DNA of 34,571 nt from Crenothrix polyspora (GTDB taxonomy: Bacteria > Pseudomonadota > Gammaproteobacteria > Methylococcales > Methylomonadaceae): NCBI RefSeq assembly GCF_900163755.1, contig NZ_FUKI01000166.1, positions 1-34,571 on the forward strand. The letters run 5' to 3'. Within the stretch, counting starts at the first letter, position 1, and each line of letters starts with the position of its first letter. The translations under genes and the position numbers were made by a program. Of the stretch, positions 3,101 through 34,415 are shown piece after piece. The notes under the pieces were generated by a model that saw only the letters and a list, made by a program, of their open reading frames with translations, ran no database searches and was not told where the DNA came from.

Positions 3101-3194
3101 AGCGCGAGATTGGTCGGATGGTATTGCGCCTCCCGCATCTTATCTCTCGGATAAAAGCACCAAAGGTATAGCCGAAGCCAACGTGCGCCGCTAA
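183..3194 (+). CDS. Phosphoesterase (phospholipase C / acid phosphatase family), 5'-truncated by the IS
   Basis: The C-terminal two thirds is a PF04185 phosphoesterase, which hydrolyses phosphate esters and is usually exported. Seen (numbering from the TTG at 393): the metal-site motif VLMLENRSFDSYFG near residues 267-280, the block GDRYFSSLLGPTWVNRDYL, the FITYDEHGGFYDHVEPP motif near 710, and the late SHQTYDHTSILRFIEARFG block. The N-terminal part looks like an ASH-type beta-sandwich (SPTNLLFGQQPVG, then a DLSLSVTK domain), common in secreted proteins. The frame stays open upstream of 393 back to the IS border at about 180, with no ATG and no signal peptide, so the original 5' end has been removed. 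A TTG at 393 or an in-frame ATG near 828 could restart translation, but neither has an obvious ribosome site. The catalytic domain is intact; export and expression are doubtful. Confidence 0.8.
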   Translation, partial: SITGRAFYLRIGTASTAHSPGTFDWIRVTGDNTVTKPIISASPTNLLFGQQPVGQLAKKTVTLSNTGTGTLDIGALTFNSGNVDFKFVDTNDCNNAHLVQNASCQFTVAFNPTTAGLKDGYIDIPSNGATGRDLQIGLTGEGIAVDLSLSVTKSPRPLVAGQVGLYTFEIINIGRVPATGVSFKADAPAVLLPSSTATQKLPINCQNPTNSIVCNMGNIAPNATVKLELLLKTPAIKFGVQDSPSQKFSVTATESDSDKTNNQVTTFTQTYLAGKGLDWEFQAKRLAQETPTKALPGCAYKPIPGGPIAFNTTGTINTDGNPRVIGNAMPIDYVFVLMLENRSFDSYFGRFPEYLKKVRGKTAATDIRVKPFINEYSKDGVDVPGTPYDELSTSGEINAADADLSLNANTRRNAPYNPDEAGKAPTNKLQKHYWKHHSLAIQAENGGSGLCVSDTAHDWWAAHLQWDRGRMDGFYQSNHNYWEGGSAYVGKKDSLLLDGERAMLYYDDRDIPFYYWLADNFAIGDRYFSSLLGPTWVNRDYLYAGTSRGLTSNNSDNFYKTIGSDNPGQIGSTVVCSANEKECPSITAGSQKPDPAVQIYPTTGTKLNYIADLMKARSLKISYWLNDLEGNVSTLNGLQMPPKVGAWTGKDAVSDDNVRSLNKASYDMTYTNPNNVRIYGGMTFKSTNRPTTLRMSDPGFEFALKGEADTRKARNAIKPNQPAPYSHIAHVNLIDPKMLEDINGEDEHPPGVPAKGQALVHRVVAALMANPEVWKRSVLFITYDEHGGFYDHVEPPPACEPDNLRPKWTGRYGGKPTALRQVCLASDGSPIDKCNTIDSSDPNYGGGFNRYGVRVPLMVVSPWAKHNHVSHQTYDHTSILRFIEARFGLPALTDRDANADPMLDFFDFTNSANKLTGKVSTWGKEVLPSKYPNQNPNGGVTNADILNSTVPDICKATTWFSPDGTHFGNSVYPARDWSDGIAPPASYLSDKSTKGIAEANVRR

Positions 3195-3206
3195 AGCTGC
3201 ATTACA

Positions 3207-3241
3207 CCCCGTTGCCAAACAGTGTTTGGCAACGGGGTTTT
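3207..3241 (+). terminator. Perfect palindrome followed by T4, copy A of the GTTGCCAAACA repeat
   Basis: CCCCGTTGCCAAACA, a single G, then the exact reverse complement TGTTTGGCAACGGGG and TTTT. The 15-bp perfect stem with a T run, 13 bases after the phosphoesterase stop, looks like a rho-independent terminator. The core (3211-3233) is also a repeat found at 4148, 5330 and, decayed, near 6112 and 6754. Confidence 0.7.
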
Positions 3242-3252
3242 AGCCAGGTAGA

Positions 3253-3275
3253 TCGGGCATGTTTTTTATGCCCGA
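3253..3275. repeat. Hairpin TCGGGCAT / ATGCCCGA
   Basis: Perfect 8-bp arms around a T-rich 7-base loop, in the gap between the phosphoesterase terminator and the first TA module. No coding sequence was seen between 3242 and 3499. Function unknown; it may be a second terminator or a fragment of an interspersed repeat. Confidence 0.4.
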
Positions 3276-3390
3276 CATTTACGGTGTTTTTAACGATTAC
3301 GGCCTTTGGGCTTACTTATTGTTTGCTCATCGGACACTGCTGATGGGCAGCGATAAAGCTGTTGCCCAACCTACGCTCTGTCATTAAACG

Positions 3391-3424
3391 AACTGCCCTT
3401 GGGTAACTTTTGGGCGGTTTTTTT
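3391..3424 (+). terminator. Terminator-like hairpin upstream of the first TA module
   Basis: AACTGCCC at 3391-3398 pairs with GGGCGGTTT at 3412-3420, with one G-T pair, and runs into a T tract ending at 3424. It would insulate the TA module starting at 3500 from upstream reading. Confidence 0.5.
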
Positions 3425-3499
3425 GTTTAGGGTACTTATTAAAAAACATTGTCCACGTTACAATTGCCGGTAAAACTACCCAACTTGGAGAATCATCCA

Positions 3500-3724
3500 A
3501 TGTCCACCACAACCGAAATTCTCTTACAGCAAGCCATACAACTTCCGGTTAATGATCGTGCAGCCTTAATTGAGGGACTTATTGTTAGCTTAGATAAACC
3601 AGACCCTTCACTGGATTCCTTATGGCTAAAAGAAGCCGAAAGCCGTCTTGATGCCTACCGTTCAGGTGAAATTGATGCTATTGATGCCGAGCAAGTGTTT
3701 ACTGAGCTGGGTAAACGCATTTGA
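3500..3724 (+). CDS. Antitoxin, addiction-module component family (module 1)
   Basis: A 74-residue protein of the PF09720 / TIGR02574 type (short unstable antitoxins paired with ParE/RelE toxins). Seen: the N-terminal ILLQQAIQLPVNDRAALIEGL helix region and the acidic C-terminal half with the LWLKEAESRLDAYRSGEI motif typical of the family. The start is the ATG at 3500 because GGAG lies 9 bases upstream (3487-3490); a longer in-frame TTG start at 3449 has no support. Its stop overlaps the toxin start by 4 bases (TTGA), so the two are co-translated. It is expected to bind and neutralise the toxin and to repress the operon. It is a paralogue of the gene at 4229. Confidence 0.85.
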   Translation: MSTTTEILLQQAIQLPVNDRAALIEGLIVSLDKPDPSLDSLWLKEAESRLDAYRSGEIDAIDAEQVFTELGKRI

Positions 3725-4014
3725 AAGTCAGATTTTTACGTCCCGCAAGCAGGGAGCTTAGTGAAGCTGTGCGGTATTACAACGCACAAAAAGTGCGATT
3801 GGGCGAAGAGTTTCGTGACGAAGCCTTTGAAACAATAGGCCGCATCAAGGAATTCCCGCTGGCATGGCATCCTTTAAGTGAAACCATTAGACGATGTCAG
3901 ATGCGTCGTTTCCCATATGGGTTAATTTACGAGCCTTCCGAGTCTGAAATTGTCATCATTGCCGTTGCTCATATTCATCAAGAACCTGAGTATTGGCGAA
4001 TTCGGAGGCAATAA
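3721..4014 (+). CDS. ParE/RelE-family toxin (module 1)
   Basis: A 97-residue protein of the RelE/ParE superfamily (PF05016). Seen: N-terminal KVRFLRPASRELSEAVRYYN, the mid-protein ETIRRCQMRRFPYGLIYE strand pair typical of ParE-like folds, and a C-terminal VAHIHQEPEYW strand. The start is a TTG at 3721 overlapping the antitoxin stop. Whether it attacks gyrase (ParE-like) or ribosome-bound mRNA (RelE-like) cannot be told from sequence. No truncation is seen. It is colinear over its length with the toxin at 4450, so the two modules are tandem paralogues that have diverged. Confidence 0.85.
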   Translation: MKVRFLRPASRELSEAVRYYNAQKVRLGEEFRDEAFETIGRIKEFPLAWHPLSETIRRCQMRRFPYGLIYEPSESEIVIIAVAHIHQEPEYWRIRRQ

Positions 4015-4067
4015 AACACCCCAACTTCCCATCATTCAATTAACTGTCCTTGAGTCAAAACTCGTAA

Positions 4068-4092
4068 GGTGGTTTCGCGCCAGTAAACCACC
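4068..4092. repeat. REP-like hairpin GGTGGTTT / AAACCACC, copy 1
   Basis: Perfect 8-bp arms around CGCGCCAGT, set in a longer block (about 4048-4110) that reads CTCGTAAGGTGGTTTCGCGC. A matching copy lies at 34288-34313 in another intergenic region, so this is an interspersed repeat and not part of the TA module. Confidence 0.6.
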
Positions 4093-4147
4093 ACAATCCG
4101 ATACGCCTGGTTATGAGTGAACGGTAGTACCATAAGATAAGCCACCC

Positions 4148-4170
4148 GTTGCCAAACAGTGTTTGGCAAC
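4148..4170. repeat. GTTGCCAAACA palindrome, copy B
   Basis: Perfect 11-bp arms around a single G, identical in the core to the copy at 3211-3233. It lies 58 bases before the second TA module. Here no T run follows, so a terminator role is less clear than for copy A. Confidence 0.75.
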
Positions 4171-4228
4171 GTGGTAATCTATCCACTAAAATTCGAAATC
4201 TAAATTTTGCCAAAAATAAGGTGGAAAC

Positions 4229-4453
4229 ATGTCAATTTCAACTGAAGTCATCTTGCACGATGCACTGACTTTACCCGCAGTAGAACGAGTAAAAATTATA
4301 GACCAACTCCTATCTAGCTTAGATGAAGCAGATACCCGACTAGATACAATATGGGCTGAAGAAGCTGAAACACGACTGGATGCCTTTGAGCGAGGTGAAA
4401 TCCGAAGCATTCCGCTTGAAGATATTTTGGCGCGTTACCAGAGGGCTAAATGA
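4229..4453 (+). CDS. Antitoxin, addiction-module component family (module 2)
   Basis: A 74-residue paralogue of the antitoxin at 3500 (PF09720 type). Seen: VILHDALTLPAVERVKIIDQL in the N-terminal half, then IWAEEAETRLDAFERGEI, which aligns with the same motif in module 1. The start is the ATG at 4229, with AAGGTGG about 7 bases upstream. It overlaps the toxin by 4 bases (ATGA). Role as in module 1: toxin neutraliser and probable autorepressor. The conserved length with many substitutions suggests an old duplication or separate acquisition, not a recent copy. Confidence 0.85.
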   Translation: MSISTEVILHDALTLPAVERVKIIDQLLSSLDEADTRLDTIWAEEAETRLDAFERGEIRSIPLEDILARYQRAK

Positions 4454-4746
4454 AGGTCTCCTTTCTTGAACCTGCCGAAAAGGAGTTGCAGGAAACCATT
4501 GATTATTACCAAGAGCAGCGGCAAGGCTTGGGTGATGAATTTTTAGTGGAAATCTTACTGACGCTAGAGCATATCGAAATGCACCCACAGGCGTGGCCTC
4601 AACTGTCAAAGAGAACGCGGCGCTGTCGAACTCGGCGTTTTCCTTACGGTGTTGTATATCGCTTACAGGATGACGGAATTCTTGTGGTGGCAGTTTCGCA
4701 TTTACACCGCAAACCGCTGTATTGGCTGAATCGGCTCACAGATTGA
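4450..4746 (+). CDS. ParE/RelE-family toxin (module 2)
   Basis: A 98-residue RelE/ParE-superfamily toxin, intact. Seen: KVSFLEPAEKELQETIDYYQ at the N terminus, the core RTRRCRTRRFPYGVVYRL and the C-terminal VAVSHLHRKPLYW, each matching the toxin at 3721 block by block. ATG start overlapping the antitoxin stop. The target (gyrase or mRNA) is not visible. With module 1 it forms a tandem pair of related modules, which raises the question of cross-neutralisation. Confidence 0.85.
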   Translation: MKVSFLEPAEKELQETIDYYQEQRQGLGDEFLVEILLTLEHIEMHPQAWPQLSKRTRRCRTRRFPYGVVYRLQDDGILVVAVSHLHRKPLYWLNRLTD

Positions 4747-4756
4747 AATTAGCTAA

Positions 4757-4855
4757 ATTCGTAATATTGAAATTCACCATGATGATTTATTAGCGGACTG
4801 GCAGTTGGCTGTTAACGGCAAAAAACCATTTCCAATTCGAGGTCTTGACCAATGA
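4757..4855 (+). pseudogene. C-terminal remnant of a DUF4160-type gene
   Basis: An open stretch after a TAA at 4754 reads IRNIEIHHDDLLADWQLAVN and then KKPFPIRGLDQ with a stop at 4853-4855. This resembles the C-terminal end of DUF4160 proteins, which normally sit directly upstream of a DUF2442 gene. The remnant's stop overlaps the DUF2442 ATG at 4852 by 4 bases, as in a two-gene operon. The N-terminal part of the domain is missing; the space is occupied by the toxin gene ending at 4746. Confidence 0.55.
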
Positions 4856-5100
4856 ATATTGCAGAAATTATTCCGCAAGATGATTATTTACTGTACATCA
4901 AAGCTGAAGATGGGCAAGTCGGCCTTTTTGATATAAAACCTTATCTTGATTCAGATGTTTTTGCACCGTTAAAAGACAGGGGCGAATTTGAACGTATTTA
5001 CAATGGCAAATATTTTATTGAATGGGACTGTGGGGCAGATATTTCTGCCGATACTATCCAAGCACGATGGAAAAATTTAGGATTACCTTTTGTGAGATAA
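4852..5100 (+). CDS. DUF2442 protein
   Basis: 82 residues, the usual size for DUF2442 (PF10387). Seen: YLLYIKAEDGQVGLFDIKPY, then the FAPLKDRGEFERI segment and the conserved end FIEWDCGADISADTIQARW. The biochemical role of the family is not established; it is often found next to DUF4160, and the pair has been suspected to be TA-like. Here the DUF4160 partner is only a fragment, so this gene is an orphan. The next gene starts 3 bases downstream, suggesting one transcript. Confidence 0.8.
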   Translation: MNIAEIIPQDDYLLYIKAEDGQVGLFDIKPYLDSDVFAPLKDRGEFERIYNGKYFIEWDCGADISADTIQARWKNLGLPFVR

Positions 5101-5103
5101 ATA

Positions 5104-5307
5104 ATGAAATATCGTGCGATGCTAAAACAAGTAGATGGATGGTGGATAGGTTGGCTTATTGATTTACCTGGTGTTAATGCCCAAGAAAAAAGTAAGGAGG
5201 CGTGTTTGCAATCCTTACAAATTGGTGCCCAGGATATGTTGTCAATACCGGTTACTTTTGAAGAAAACACCCTAATGGCAATTATCGAAATTCCTGAGGC
5301 GGCATAA
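5104..5307 (+). CDS. HicB-like orphan antitoxin
   Basis: 67 residues with the HicB partial RNase H-like N terminus: MKYRAMLKQVDGWWIGWLID then LPGVNAQEKSKEACLQSLQ, matching the usual Y-x-A-x-x-x-x-x-G-x-W-x-G-x-x-x-x-x-PG pattern. No DNA-binding domain follows; the protein ends after MAIIEIPEAA. No HicA toxin (short double-stranded RNA-binding type) is seen on either side. Its 3' end from 5275 on is duplicated at 6058. Probably a stranded antitoxin, or a standalone HicB-fold protein. Confidence 0.7.
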   Translation: MKYRAMLKQVDGWWIGWLIDLPGVNAQEKSKEACLQSLQIGAQDMLSIPVTFEENTLMAIIEIPEAA

Positions 5308-5367
5308 CCCGTAAGATGATTAGTTACACGTTGCCAAACAGTGTTTGGCAACGGGGTTTTAGCCAAT
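5275..5367 (+). repeat. Direct repeat, copy 1 (3' end of the HicB-like gene plus palindrome)
   Basis: Starts at ATGGCAATTATCGAAAT and runs through the gene's stop, the AAGATGATTAGTTACACG spacer and the palindrome to GGTTTTAGCCA. A second copy at 6058-6148 matches at most positions. The two flank the HigB-HigA module. Confidence 0.8.
5330..5356. repeat. GTTGCCAAACA palindrome, copy C
   Basis: Perfect 11-bp arms (5330-5352) around G, followed by GGGGTTTTAGCCA as in copy A. It lies 22 bases after the HicB-like stop and could end that transcript, although the CCCC that completes the stem in copy A is missing. Confidence 0.75.
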
Positions 5368-5374
5368 GCCAGTT

Positions 5375-5416
5375 AATATCAAAATAATTTGATAATTATC
5401 TAACTATTTTGATATT
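5375..5416 (+). promoter_or_regulatory. Nested dyad, probable operator of the HigBA module
   Basis: AATATCAAAAT (5375-5385) and its exact reverse complement ATTTTGATATT (5406-5416) flank the self-complementary GATAATTATC (5391-5400). All are centred on the same point, 5395/5396. The block ends 9 bases before the HigB start. HigA-type XRE antitoxins are known to repress their own operon at palindromes in the promoter, so this is the expected binding site. Confidence 0.65.
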
Positions 5417-5425
5417 CTTTGTCTA

Positions 5426-5749
5426 ATGAAAAAATTACGCTTTATAGGCTCCAGCTTGGATGACCTTAAAAATTTCCCCCTTGAAGCACGTCGTGAAGCA
5501 GGGTTTGAACTGGATACAGTGCAGCGTGGCAACATGCCGTCCGATTTTAAGCCGCTACTGACAGTGGGTTCTGGCGTATATGAGATACGCATACATGCAC
5601 TGGGCGAGTGGCGAATAATTTATGTCGCCAAGTTCGATGATGCCGTCTACGTACTACATGCTTTTCAAAAAAAGACCCAAAAAACCCAGCATGAAGATAT
5701 TGAGCTGGCCAAACGTCGATATAAACAACTGAGAACCTCCGATGAATGA
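5426..5749 (+). CDS. higB: HigB/Gp49-like toxin
   Basis: 107 residues of the phage-derived Gp49-like / HigB toxin family (PF05973), ribosome-dependent mRNA cutters by family knowledge. Seen: KKLRFIGSSLDDLKNFP, the core VGSGVYEIRIHALGEWRIIY, and VYVLHAFQKKTQKTQHEDIE with the lysine-rich segment usual in this family before the last helix. The toxin gene comes first and the antitoxin second, the reverse of most type II modules and normal for higBA. It overlaps the antitoxin by 8 bases. The start at 5426 follows the dyad operator closely. Confidence 0.82.
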   Translation: MKKLRFIGSSLDDLKNFPLEARREAGFELDTVQRGNMPSDFKPLLTVGSGVYEIRIHALGEWRIIYVAKFDDAVYVLHAFQKKTQKTQHEDIELAKRRYKQLRTSDE

Positions 5750-6023
5750 AGACCCTGTCATTGAATCATCCGGCAATGTGTTTACCGATCTCGGCTTTTC
5801 TCTAGAAGAAGCCACCTTGTTGGCGATGCGTGCTGAATTAATGGCCAAATTACGCGAAACCATTGCTGAAAAGGGCTGGACGCAAATTCAGGCAGCTGAA
5901 CAGCTGGGTATCGGGCAATCCCGTGTGTCTGATTTGGTGCGTGGCAAATGGGAAAAATTTAGCCTGGATATGCTGGTAACACTGGCAACACGCGTCGGTC
6001 GTCAGGTTGAGCTATCAGTCTGA
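5742..6023 (+). CDS. higA: HigA-like XRE antitoxin
   Basis: 93 residues with an XRE helix-turn-helix at about 46-70 (WTQIQAAEQLGIGQSRVSDL), followed by LVTLATRVGRQVELSV. It is of the HigA2 / COG5606 type paired with Gp49-like toxins. Start ATG at 5742 inside the end of the toxin gene. It should bind the toxin and also the dyad at 5375-5416 to repress the operon. The module appears intact, the only fully intact toxin-antitoxin pair between the DUF2442 gene and gmk. Confidence 0.82.
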   Translation: MNEDPVIESSGNVFTDLGFSLEEATLLAMRAELMAKLRETIAEKGWTQIQAAEQLGIGQSRVSDLVRGKWEKFSLDMLVTLATRVGRQVELSV

Positions 6024-6057
6024 TGGGGCATTACAAAACTATTATTGAATGCCGTGG

Positions 6058-6148
6058 ATGGCAATTATCGAAATCCCCGAGGCTGCATAACCTTCAAGAT
6101 GATTAGTTACACGCTAAGCACTGTTTGGCAACGTGGTTTTAGCCACAA
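6058..6148 (+). repeat. Direct repeat, copy 2 (duplicated HicB gene tail, decayed palindrome D)
   Basis: ATGGCAATTATCGAAAT, GATGATTAGTTACACG and CTGTTTGGCAACGTGG are shared with 5275-5367. The left palindrome arm has decayed to GCTAAGCA near 6113-6120. There is no HicB coding sequence upstream, so only the tail was copied. The spacing between copies is 783 bases and encloses the operator and higBA. Confidence 0.75.
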
Positions 6149-6157
6149 TTTAATAGG

Positions 6158-6441
6158 TCACGCTTGATAAACATCATCATGACTACCCACATTTACCAAA
6201 ATAATTTCCTTTTCAGTAATAATCATTTCCAAAGTTATACACGATAATTGAGATTAATAGATACTGAATGCAAAGCCGCCAACTTACCTTTTAATGGGTG
6301 AAGCCGTAGTGATGGATGATAAGGATTTTGAGCCAATAAAAGCAATGTTCTGCGATACGGCTCTTTTAACTCAGAATGTTGCTTGGCAAAACGCTTGGCG
6401 CATTTTTTATAACTGTCAGTAAAAACTAAGGTGTAACTCAT
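6158..6441 (-). pseudogene. RelE/StbE-type toxin, frameshifted
   Basis: The first 68 codons give MSYTLVFTDSYKKCAKRFAK through HPLKGKLAALHSVSINLNYR and then V-stop at 6235. This is a normal RelE/StbE-like toxin up to its late beta strands. Directly after the stop, another frame continues ITLEMIITEKEIILVNVGSH then DDVYQA and a stop at 6158-6160, which is the expected end of the family. Removing two bases (GT in CGTGTATAAC, about 6238-6241) restores one open frame of about 93 residues. The toxin has therefore lost its C-terminal strands and is probably inactive. It overlaps its antitoxin by 4 bases (ATGA). Confidence 0.8.
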
Positions 6442-6686
6442 TCGCCAAATAGCTCGTTAACATGCTCTTCAATGCTATTTTTACTGAATCGACCTGCTGC
6501 AACATCTTGCTGTGCTTCATAAAATGCCGCTTCCAACTCCATTTCTCGCAAATAACGGTAATGCGCCATCTTCATTACCACAAAGCTTTCCTTACCACGT
6601 ACGGTAATAACAACTTCTGGTTGGGTACTTAAGCTTTCTTCCAAACAGGCAATGCCTTTGGTTTTTAAATCGTTAGCTGTAATCAT
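6438..6686 (-). CDS. Phd/YefM-family antitoxin
   Basis: 82 residues from the ATG at 6684-6686: MITANDLKTKGIACLEESLS then TVRGKESFVVMKMAHYRYLR and the acidic tail FSKNSIEEHVNELFGE. This matches prevent-host-death type antitoxins paired with RelE/StbE toxins. AAGG sits about 8 bases upstream of this ATG, so it is preferred to the longer frame starting at 6761. It is complete and in frame, while its partner toxin is frameshifted, so it is now an antitoxin without a working toxin. It may still repress its promoter or neutralise related toxins. Confidence 0.8.
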   Translation of the reverse strand: MITANDLKTKGIACLEESLSTQPEVVITVRGKESFVVMKMAHYRYLREMELEAAFYEAQQDVAAGRFSKNSIEEHVNELFGE

Positions 6687-6753
6687 GTAAATAACCTTAT
6701 TAATCGTACGGTTAAGTATAGGGTTAGCCGAGCTATTAATCAATAAAATGACT

Positions 6754-6776
6754 GTTGCCAAGCAATGACTGGTAAC
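6754..6776. repeat. GTTGCCAAACA palindrome, decayed copy E
   Basis: GTTGCCAAGCAATGACTGGTAAC followed by GTGGTTTTAAC. The outer arms still pair (GTTGCCA with TGGTAAC, one G-T) while the centre has diverged. It lies 67 bases upstream of the Phd antitoxin. Confidence 0.55.
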
Positions 6777-6869
6777 GTGGTTTTAACAATTTTTAAATCA
6801 TGCCCCCCACCACCCAAATTTTGAGTGTAGCAATACGCTATCTCTCCACACATCAATGGTTTTCGGCAC

Positions 6870-7000
6870 ATACAGCGTTTTCACAGTTCAATAGTTACAG
6901 CGTAACCGTTCGCACTGAGCTTGTCGAAGTGTGCCGTTCATGCTTCGACAAGCTCAGCACGAACGGTGGCTGTAACTGTCCTAAGTTGAAAACGCTGTAA
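6870..7000. mobile_element. MITE-like inverted-repeat element, full copy
   Basis: The left arm starts TACAGCGTTTTCA and carries CTGAGCTTGTCGAAG. The right arm is its imperfect reverse complement, with CTTCGACAAGCTCAG and ending TTGAAAACGCTGTA. There is no coding capacity. A second copy lies at 34337, with only the left arm and centre. The right end of this copy abuts and overlaps the 3' end of the vapC remnant. Confidence 0.7.
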
Positions 7001-7347
7001 GCAATGTTTAATGCGCCTGCTATAGCCAGTAAACGTTTATCGCGTGTCTAAATTTGCACACCGTTAATACTTGCCGCTAACAGATGCGCGTCAATATAGC
7101 CAATTCCGCGCCCTATTAACTGATGCTGATCTATAAAATACAATACCTCCGCTTCATTAGCTGCGGGACAAGAAGGTAAGTTATTGAGCAAACTTAAAAT
7201 TTCCTGCGGATTTTTCAAGTTTCCACAAGCCAGTTCACCAATAACCCACGGATGAATACAAACCAAATCTGATGCCAATAAGCTCAACAATCGACTATCT
7301 ACATCACGCAAGTGGTCAATCCATAGCGAGGTATCAACTAATATCAC
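6990..7347 (-). pseudogene. vapC: VapC PIN-domain toxin with a nonsense codon
   Basis: The GTG start at 7345-7347 overlaps the vapB stop. Residues 1-99 are a PIN domain: LVDTSLWIDHL (Asp5), WVIGELACG (Glu38), GRGIGYIDAHLLA (Asp86). A TAG at 7048-7050 stands where the family has Trp in the motif W-T-R-D-K-R-L; the same frame continues TRDKRLLAIAGALNIAYS after it. The stop removes the last conserved acidic residue (the Asp of TRDKR), so the RNase site is incomplete. Beyond about 6998 the frame runs into the MITE-like element, so the natural end is also disturbed. Confidence 0.8.
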
Positions 7348-7540
7348 AGAATCGATTCACGCTGACGGGGAATATCTTGCACTTGGCTTTCGCTACCCGC
7401 TAATTTTGCGAGCCGCCTGGCGCTTTCCCGCTGAATTAAGGCATTTAAAGCCTCACGAACCAAGGCGTTTCGTTCTTGCAGGCCACTGAGCGCTTGCGCT
7501 TTTAATACGAGGGCATCGTCAAGATGTGTGTCGTTCTCAT
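7344..7540 (-). pseudogene. vapB: VapB antitoxin, frameshifted near its start
   Basis: The body LDDALVLKAQALSGLQERNA then LVREALNALIQRESARRLAK and a tail ending RESIL is a VapB antitoxin (PF09957 type). The family start M-R-T-T exists at the ATG 7538-7540 with GGAG 7 bases upstream, but it is out of frame: it gives MRTTHILTMPSY and a stop. Dropping one AC from the ACACAC run (7525-7531) joins MRTTH to LDDAL exactly. Without that, translation must start further up (ATG at 7566-7568), where no ribosome site is seen, giving an altered N terminus. Type II arrangement with vapC, 4-base overlap. Confidence 0.7.
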
Positions 7541-7767
7541 TATTCGCTCCAAAAGTTGAGTGCATCATGAAGCTCATAAAGTGTACGTTTTTTGGTTTAG
7601 TCGTGGCTGGCAGTGGAGGGCAGCAATACTTCCACGATCCAATCTGGCGCACCGCGTATGCTGCAGCAGACAAGGCGGCGGATTTATTGAGAATGAGCGG
7701 GCGACGTTTTGGCGTAAGCTATTGGCAATATAATGTTGCATTATCAGTGGTGTTGTTTTGTAAAAAT

Positions 7768-8396: not shown

Positions 8397-9263
8397 TTAT
8401 TCGATATTTTGTATTTGTTCGCGTATTTGTTCAATCAACACTTTCAGTTCGATTGAAATACGTGTCATTTCTTTATCGTTAGATTTGGAACCGATGGTAT
8501 TGGCTTCGCGGTTTAATTCTTGCATTAAAAAATCCAAGCGTCTACCGGCGGGGTCTGGTCGTGCTAACGTTCTTAATACTTCGGTAAGATGGGTGTCGAG
8601 TCTGTCGAGTTCTTCGGCAATATCCAGTTTTTGCGTCATTAACACCAGTTCTTGTTCTAAGCGGTCAAAATCTGGCTGAGCCACCAAGTCCAGTACGCGG
8701 TCGGTTAGTCGGTTACGAATTAACAAGAGTACTTCTGGCATACGTTGCTGTGCCACAAGTATCAGTTCGCGCATTTTAGTGCAACGTTCTTCAATAACTA
8801 TTTTTAGTTGAGCGCCTTCGCGCAATCGTGTTGCTACCAAGGTAATTAACGCTTGATTAACCAAGCCCATGATGCTGTCGTTCAGCACTTCACTATCGGT
8901 GTCGGGTTCTTGTTGTATGCCTGGAAACGCTAAAACATCTAATGCTGAAAAAGCCTGTGTGTTAGACATGTAACGTTCAATAGTCTGTGTCGCTTCTAAT
9001 AAAGCAATGACCGCCGCCTGATTAACCATAAAATTTTGCCCAGCTTGTACTTGTTTTTTATAACTGATAGCGCATTCAATTTTACCGCGATTAACTTTGC
9101 TGGCAATGGCTGAGCGAATATCCGTTTCAAGAAAGCGTAAGCGATCTGGGAGCTTTAACGTAATGTCACAGTAGCGGTGATTAACTGAGCGAATTTCGCA
9201 GCTAAAGGACAGATTGGCCGCTTCGGTTTCACTGCCGGAGAACGCCGTCATACTTCTTATCAT
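8397..9263 (-). CDS. yicC: YicC family endoribonuclease-like protein
   Basis: 288 residues, the family's usual length. Seen: the start MIRSMTAFS, SCEIRSVNHRYCDITLKLPD, and the C-terminal block RRLDFLMQELNREANTIGSK with a helical end. E. coli YicC has been described as an endoribonuclease acting on small RNA; that role here is by homology. The ATG at 9261-9263 is chosen because the family starts with this motif. It is divergent from the kinase at 9469 across a 205-base gap that shows no gene. Confidence 0.93.
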   Translation of the reverse strand: MIRSMTAFSGSETEAANLSFSCEIRSVNHRYCDITLKLPDRLRFLETDIRSAIASKVNRGKIECAISYKKQVQAGQNFMVNQAAVIALLEATQTIERYMSNTQAFSALDVLAFPGIQQEPDTDSEVLNDSIMGLVNQALITLVATRLREGAQLKIVIEERCTKMRELILVAQQRMPEVLLLIRNRLTDRVLDLVAQPDFDRLEQELVLMTQKLDIAEELDRLDTHLTEVLRTLARPDPAGRRLDFLMQELNREANTIGSKSNDKEMTRISIELKVLIEQIREQIQNIE

Positions 9264-9468
9264 TTTTCACCTATAATTGGAGAAGTTATTTTGTAACGAC
9301 TCGGTTTTTAGAAAAACAGAACGTGGATCGTACTGATTGTGGGGCTTTTAGCGAATTTTATTAATCACCCGTGGCGATCAGTTAAGTTAGTATTTCCGTG
9401 TTTTGATCCCGTGCAGCGGCAATGTCTGCTGAGTTGTCACGTTATTTTAATGCCAAAATAAATAAAAA

Positions 9469-10368
9469 ATGGCCGAATACTACGATCCAGAAACGTATCC
9501 CCAGCAATGGAATTATCTCCAAACGGGCATCATTATAGACCAGTATATGATCGAGCGGGAATTAGCGCACGGCGGATTTAGCTCAGTTTATTTGGCCAGG
9601 CAGTTGGCTGACCAAATGCAGGTGGTGATTAAAGAATATCTGCCCAGAAAGTTAGCTCACAGAACGTGGAATAATGAAGTGGTGGCTAACAGCGATGAAA
9701 CACTGAGTTTGTTTTTACGTGGTCGTGCCTTGTTTTTTGAGGAAGCTAAAGTCTTGGCAACGTTAAAACATACTAATATTGTCGAGGTTATTAGTTTTTT
9801 TAAAGCCAATTCTACCGTGTATATGGTAATGACCTATGACTATGGACTTACTCTCGATAAGTTGCTGAGCGGTAAACGCGTCAGCCCTTCTGTAGAGCTT
9901 TTACTGGCGGTATTTACCTCGTTGTTAGACGGTGTTGAGCATGTGCATAAACACAATCTTGTGCATTTAGACATTAAACCAGCCAATATTTTGGTACGAC
10001 CAGGGAATGAGGCGTTATTATTGGATTTTGGTGCAATTCAACGTTTTCCGAGTAAGCCGATTAGTAAAAAAAATACCGTTCTTTCACAGGGTTACTCACC
10101 GGTTGAACAGTACAATCAAAAATCTGAATTTGGTCCATGGACTGATGTGTATGCGATTGGTGCCAGTATGCGTGCGTGTTTGGATGGCAAAACGCCGATA
10201 GGCAGCACCTCGCGTATAAAAAAAGATACGCTGTCGCCGGCGGCTAGTGTGTGTCGCGGCAAGTTTCCAGAAAATTTCTTAAAAGTGATTGATTGGGCGA
10301 TGGCGGTGCATCCTGAAGACAGACCGCAATCAATTGCTGAACTCAGACAGGCACTTATCGGTATTTGA
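9469..10368 (+). CDS. Cytosolic Ser/Thr protein kinase
   Basis: 299 residues, a single Hanks-type kinase domain with no membrane segment or sensor domain. Seen: glycine loop LAHGGFSSVYLA (33-44), catalytic Lys55 in VVIKEYLP, Glu91/92 as the helix-C glutamate, the catalytic loop HLDIKPANIL (166-175; Asp168, Lys170, Asn173), DFG at 186-188 and an activation segment leading to GYSPVEQY. HLD replaces HRD, so it lacks the arginine that usually reads activation-loop phosphate. No PP2C phosphatase gene lies beside it. Upstream is yicC (divergent), downstream rph after 74 bases. Substrates are unknown. Confidence 0.9.
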   Translation: MAEYYDPETYPQQWNYLQTGIIIDQYMIERELAHGGFSSVYLARQLADQMQVVIKEYLPRKLAHRTWNNEVVANSDETLSLFLRGRALFFEEAKVLATLKHTNIVEVISFFKANSTVYMVMTYDYGLTLDKLLSGKRVSPSVELLLAVFTSLLDGVEHVHKHNLVHLDIKPANILVRPGNEALLLDFGAIQRFPSKPISKKNTVLSQGYSPVEQYNQKSEFGPWTDVYAIGASMRACLDGKTPIGSTSRIKKDTLSPAASVCRGKFPENFLKVIDWAMAVHPEDRPQSIAELRQALIGI

Positions 10369-34336: not shown

Positions 34337-34415
34337 TACAGCGTTTTCACAGTTCAATAGTTACAGCGTAACCGTTCGTGCTGAGCTTGTCGAAGTGTGC
34401 CGTTCATGCTTCGAC
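34337..34415. mobile_element. MITE-like element, truncated copy
   Basis: TACAGCGTTTTCACAGTTCA through AGTTACAGCGTAACCGTTCG and CTGAGCTTGTCGAAGTGTGC to CATGCTTCGAC, matching the element at 6870-7000 nearly base for base. The right arm is missing; unrelated sequence begins at about 34416. The rest of the 545-base gap 34027-34571 shows no clear gene. Confidence 0.7.

Follow-up and report, generated by a model that had tools for sequence, protein, structure and literature searches.

Array features

The window, meaning the whole stretch of 34,571 nucleotides from Crenothrix polyspora analyzed here, contains an array of toxin–antitoxin modules in the order two Unstab_antitox/ParE pairs, DUF2442–hicB, higBA, a YafQ/Phd-like pair, and a VapBC-like pair. 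Five copies of one palindrome lie between the modules, all in a single orientation. A search of genome contigs returned three stretches, from two congeners: C. polyspora RSM_CP2 (G001) and a draft labeled Methylobacter tundripaludum (G002). The features of the array are as follows.

3211–3233, + strand: palindrome copy 1 (GTTGCC...GGCAAC), with GGGGTTTTAGCC on its right
4108–4146, + strand: left flank of palindrome 2, with 30–35-base matches to left flanks in L030 and L031
4148–4170, + strand: palindrome copy 2
4229–4746, + strand: Unstab_antitox/ParE module (second of two); block 4148–4764 is 94% identical in G001, in changed order
4852–5100, + strand: DUF2442 ORF; its last codons (from ∼5068) are the 3′ end of a HicA-like gene
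5104–5307, + strand: HicB-like (UPF0150-like) ORF, first copy; Pfam match below cut-off; 96% identical to a G001 protein beside a HicA-like ORF
5275–5367, + strand: direct repeat, first copy (last hicB codons, spacer, palindrome 3)
5330–5352, + strand: palindrome copy 3
5375–5416, no strand: dyad before higB with two 21-base arms, probable HigA operator
5426–5749, + strand: HigB-type toxin (Gp49, PF05973; Pfam 5.2e-28)
5742–6023, + strand: HigA-type antitoxin (HTH_37, PF13744; Pfam 1.4e-20)
6038–6057, + strand: putative relic of a HicA-like gene (inside part), 19/20 identical to G001
6058–6148, + strand: direct repeat, second copy (last hicB codons, spacer, palindrome 4)
6113–6132, + strand: palindrome copy 4, left arm without three bases
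6235–6761, − strand: YafQ-like toxin and Phd/YefM-like antitoxin; block 6120–6781 is 94% identical in G001, in changed order
6754–6776, + strand: palindrome copy 5
7048–7589, − strand: VapC-like (PIN, below cut-off) and VapB; block 6754–7566 is found in G001, in changed order

The higBA genes overlap and have the layout of type II HigBA pairs, in which the gene of a RelE-fold HigB/Gp49 toxin precedes that of an HTH antitoxin, here Gp49 and then HTH_37. The NCBIfam HigA and upstrm_HI1419 models gave matches below cut-off only. Thirty-four columns of the dyad align with the equivalent place before higBA in another genome, G027. In that genome (L034:2826–3410) higA is intact, no higB ORF of at least 55 aa is listed, and the higB sequence has an in-frame stop when compared with the window. 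A plasmid collection yielded one record, covering 8% of the query and lying inside higB, and the viral contigs held no match to the query. HigBA is an ordinary module, of predicted toxin–antitoxin function, between two worn hicAB units.

The names HicA and HicB denote sub-threshold Pfam matches. In G001, HicA (PF07927) scored 20.0 bits against a cut-off of 27 and the UPF0150-like HicB 18.9 against 27.3; the HicB-like ORF of the window scored 16.3 bits, and NCBIfam gave no match for HicA or HicB. The likeness to type II HicAB pairs is that a HicA-like gene is followed by a UPF0150-like gene in G001; the difference is that hicA is broken in both window copies and that the assignments fall below cut-off. 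In the YafQ/Phd pair, both Pfam matches of the window were likewise below cut-off, and the YafQ of G001 was above it.

The direct repeat around higBA

The preliminary description had placed higB, higA, and the dyad between two copies of a direct repeat, and this was borne out. Positions 5275–5330 and 6058–6113 share 89% identity over 56 bases, and the alignment, which continues as far as 5365 and 6145, contains 10 mismatches and a single 3-base gap in total; its score of 117 compares with a best of 33 after shuffling of the 93-base query and the whole window (60 times). The palindrome described as part of both copies is present in each, although damaged in the second, and it is not tied to the repeat pair, as it occurs five times in the window.

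The second copy had been described as the 3′ tail of hicB alone, which does not hold. Directly before this tail, 6038–6057 agrees at 19 of 20 bases with the inside of the G001 HicA-like ORF and is collinear with the hicB tail; no pair among 5000 shuffled ones reached this score. The HicA-like ORF of G001 stands directly before the hicB homolog and the pieces in the window keep that order, with ∼265 bases of hicA and hicB absent between stump and tail (counted by hand on the G001 sequence); the stump itself is only 20 bases long. Given the hicA piece and the order of pieces in G001, we read the second copy as a hicAB pair that suffered a deletion rather than as a tail that was copied; 6038–6148 would be what is left of a second hicAB after an internal deletion.

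The repeat does bracket HigBA, and only the hicB 3′ end is found in both copies, as the earlier proposal would have it: HigBA would be a mobile unit that inserted by hicB and copied the 3′ end of that gene as a target duplication. A target duplication should consist of like copies with no older remains alongside, and here a hicA stump adjoins the second copy. Moreover, across 55 tail positions there is one difference between the first tail and G001 hicB, against six between the two tails and five between the second tail and G001. A tail copied from the first within the lineage is expected to be closer to the first, so this distance counts against copying; since a relic changes faster than a gene, the outlying position of the second tail says little by itself. 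The higBA block of G027 (69% identity, 5377–6015) matches neither the hicB tail nor the palindrome, and palindromes flank other modules as well. We therefore consider insertion with duplication of the target end very improbable. The direct repeat is best explained by gene decay, apparently of a second copy of the neighboring gene pair, of which a worn end remains. A relative in which a second hicB had eroded to its tail was the finding named at the outset as speaking against insertion; the relic in the window comes close to this, not a relative, because none with two full hicB copies at the corresponding place was seen.

The first hicAB unit is worn at its other end. The block common to the window and G001 begins at 5068, within the DUF2442 ORF, which ends in the last codons of hicA. 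As a separate observation, the DUF2442 block is fused in frame with the last codons of the HicA-like gene over 4766–5100. Positions 4766–5071 are 76% identical to a DUF2442 gene of G002, in which they form a separate block with both ends outside palindromes, and the end of the G002 protein differs from that of the fused ORF. Another genome, G016, has a truncated hicA and a shortened hicB without a palindrome of this kind.

Module order and palindrome flanks among congeners

Four blocks of the window recur on G001 contig C321 in the order 5068–5360, 6754–7566, 6120–6781, and 4148–4764, each oriented as in the window, followed by MazE/MazF and then a higA fragment. The idea that the repeats delimit units able to recombine keeps some support: in G001, vapBC comes next after the hicAB–palindrome unit and higBA is absent from between them, a higA fragment stands elsewhere in the same array, and flanks swap partners at palindromes. 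Palindromes make up 4.7% of the region, and five of the eight ends of the four module blocks fall in them; the other three fall outside. Adding four other blocks of at least 100 bases, all eight ends of which lie outside, gives five of 16 (binomial 7e-4); this value is rough because block ends are interdependent and a contig stops at one of them (5814), and the count includes the G027 block and leaves out the G002 DUF2442 block (4766–5071) and further matches.

We compared the flanks of 13 palindrome sites from the three genomes with the palindrome itself masked. Left flanks fell into three groups at nine of the 13 sites and right flanks into three groups at seven, with some links resting on 30–38 bases (left of palindrome 2; right of a G002 site). 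The six sites with both flanks grouped had six different pairings. When left flanks were compared with inverted right flanks across the 13 sites, none exceeded the shuffled maximum. G002 shares flanks with the window, not the re-ordered module set. The evidence for re-sorting comes from three genomes, all drafts, with those of the window and G001 fragmented; since the G001 junction sites differ in sequence, misjoining at one identical repeat is unlikely.

The left flank of palindrome 2 (4108–4146) corresponds to the 3′ end of a G001 gene, HEAT-like by a sub-threshold name, and to relics of that gene in G002. In each of the three genomes such 3′ ends lie to the left of palindromes (4108–4146; L030:2386–2760; L031:2030–2209 and 3220–3450), a further instance of the end of a gene remaining next to a palindrome. 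In a search for an empty site, the last ∼800 bases of the phosphoesterase gene upstream of the array had no DNA match in G001, G002, G115, or G016. The 1.5 kb beside gmk in G001 had no match to the array, so the G001 array lies elsewhere or farther off.

Origin of the array and nature of the palindrome

The palindrome is 23–25 bases long, with arms of 9–11 bases about a short centre. A model search of the window's own genome found only the five array sites at E ≤ 0.1 (150 of 3812 first-look candidates scored), unlike the many dispersed copies of a REP element, and a pattern search allowing up to three mismatches found only three perfect copies. Within two mismatches, the palindrome occurred in four of 151 family genomes: the window's own, the congeners G001 and G002, and G115. 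A looser palindrome, CGTTnCCA...TGGnAACG (mainly CGTTCCCA...TGGGAACG), was found in 16 of the 61 genomes searched, 14 of them besides the window's own and G001. We fetched 18 looser sites and scanned 33 of 43 nearby proteins, the scan covering palindrome sites only; six site-spanning ORFs, one small ORF between two sites, and three ORFs farther off were left out by hand, and three other site-spanning ORFs were kept. For G011, G046, and G010, no toxin–antitoxin family appeared among the 25 of 32 neighbor families shown, and we rejected the looser palindromes as markers of toxin–antitoxin genes.

We think it likely that the locus is a decaying array containing two hicAB–palindrome units, whose stumps form the direct repeat, and that it has been re-sorted by exchange at short palindromes. 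The array would consist of decaying toxin–antitoxin modules, several of them bounded by one 23–25-base palindrome in a single orientation, and two of its units would originally have been hicAB plus palindrome. The first unit would have lost most of hicA, with the DUF2442 gene becoming fused to the last hicA codons; the second would have lost ∼265 bases from inside hicA to the end of hicB, and HigBA now precedes the stump. The direct repeat would then be the two surviving hicAB 3′ ends. Modules may have been re-joined now and then by homologous or slippage exchange between the short palindromes, with decay and breaks elsewhere following, and the palindromes may also serve as weak terminators at module ends. 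The aligned sequences themselves show the HicA-like stump, the outlying position of the second tail and, among congeners, flanks that have changed partners at palindromes; the order of events in the array is one that we infer. Occasional exchange at short repeats, whether homologous or by slippage, together with decay is the likeliest process, and outward signs of cassette mobility can follow from these two alone.

A dedicated site-specific recombinase that excises and inserts the modules as cassettes, in the manner of integrons or dif modules but with the palindromes as a different site, is possible, if rather unlikely. It would fit the orientation of the palindromes, which by the better-scoring strand is uniform within each contig (5/5, 5/5, and 2/2), the re-pairing of flanks at the palindrome, and the 9–11-base arms on either side of a short centre. 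However, several breakpoints are located away from palindromes, and exchange between identical stretches of 25–37 bases may proceed without a special enzyme. Nor do the palindromes resemble known sites. No attC-like RYYYAAC/GTTRRRY pair 30–150 bases apart was found on either strand of 3150–7700, where 1.23 were expected by chance, and the palindromes match dif (the Escherichia coli sequence) at only 10–13 of 28 positions. The best dif match in the array, at ∼6781–6808 beside palindrome 5, reached 19/28, within the shuffled range (up to 20). The genome has 12 TIGR02249 matches, none on the contig of the array (C2, which ends 3.2 kb left of palindrome 1); the sole match over cut-off is on contig C52. 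That contig carries an integron with canonical attC sites near its integron integrase gene (L092:5214–6221 and 8846–10155). An undescribed oriented cassette system of Crenothrix-type methanotrophs, collecting toxin–antitoxin modules by means of a remote recombinase whose site is unlike attC or dif, strikes us as improbable.

More weight, though still doubtful, can be given to the palindromes being ordinary transcription terminators or dispersed intergenic repeats, the changes in module order having causes of their own. As RNA, palindrome 3 forms a stable fold (z −2.96), the looser palindrome occurs in 16 of the 61 genomes with no toxin–antitoxin family among the neighbor families shown for three of them, and many breakpoints are not at palindromes. 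On the other hand, a terminator scan listed none of the five, all five sites found in this genome lie in the array, and the flank re-pairing is centered on the palindrome. Stem covariation makes no case for an RNA function, as none of five measures clearly beat the shuffles (38 to 74 of 500 as high), and the two sub-threshold Rfam matches were both away from the palindromes.

Several known systems share traits with the array. The plasmid dif (pdif) modules of Acinetobacter, which depend on XerCD, are described in PMC13141974 as small modules, often toxin–antitoxin pairs including higBA, that lie between short recombination sites in varying configurations. The array resembles them in having small toxin–antitoxin modules between short sites and in varied order; it differs in that the palindromes are unlike dif and are known, in one orientation, from the sequence of draft-genome contigs. 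Sedentary chromosomal integrons hold cassettes as oriented units with a hairpin-forming 3′ site, their order changed by recombination. Oriented units, a hairpin-forming site at the 3′ end, and re-ordering are likewise seen here, whereas the array has no RYYYAAC...GTTRRRY pair and the genome's own integron sits on another contig. Palindromes of the REP, REPIN, or MITE kinds are also short and lie between genes, but those of the array number five in their genome, in one array and one orientation. On six G115 contigs (C161, C184, C210, C227, C275, and C372), related palindromes are paired ∼100 bases apart, like a small mobile element. We found no paper on such a toxin–antitoxin/palindrome array.

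The interest of the locus lies in toxin–antitoxin modules that have been shuffled, often at a single short palindrome and without change of orientation, in a genome whose true integron uses different sites. Should exchange at the palindrome prove real, attC and dif would be joined by a further kind of module-shuffling site; otherwise the array would show clearly how short repeats and decay can mimic the mobility of cassettes.

Two smaller pieces were noted at the right of the array. An element at 6873–6997, with ends CAGCGTTTTC/GAAAACGCTG and TA on both sides, interrupts the vapBC block; in G001 the site is uninterrupted and has a single TA. The left part of the element recurs as a 79-base copy at 34337, and related stretches occur in G001, G002, G016, and G115; from its look, we take it to be a small element of the IS630/mariner type. 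Farther right, 7566–7661, presumably Uma2-like, matches L030 1979–2074, where it lies within a longer ORF.
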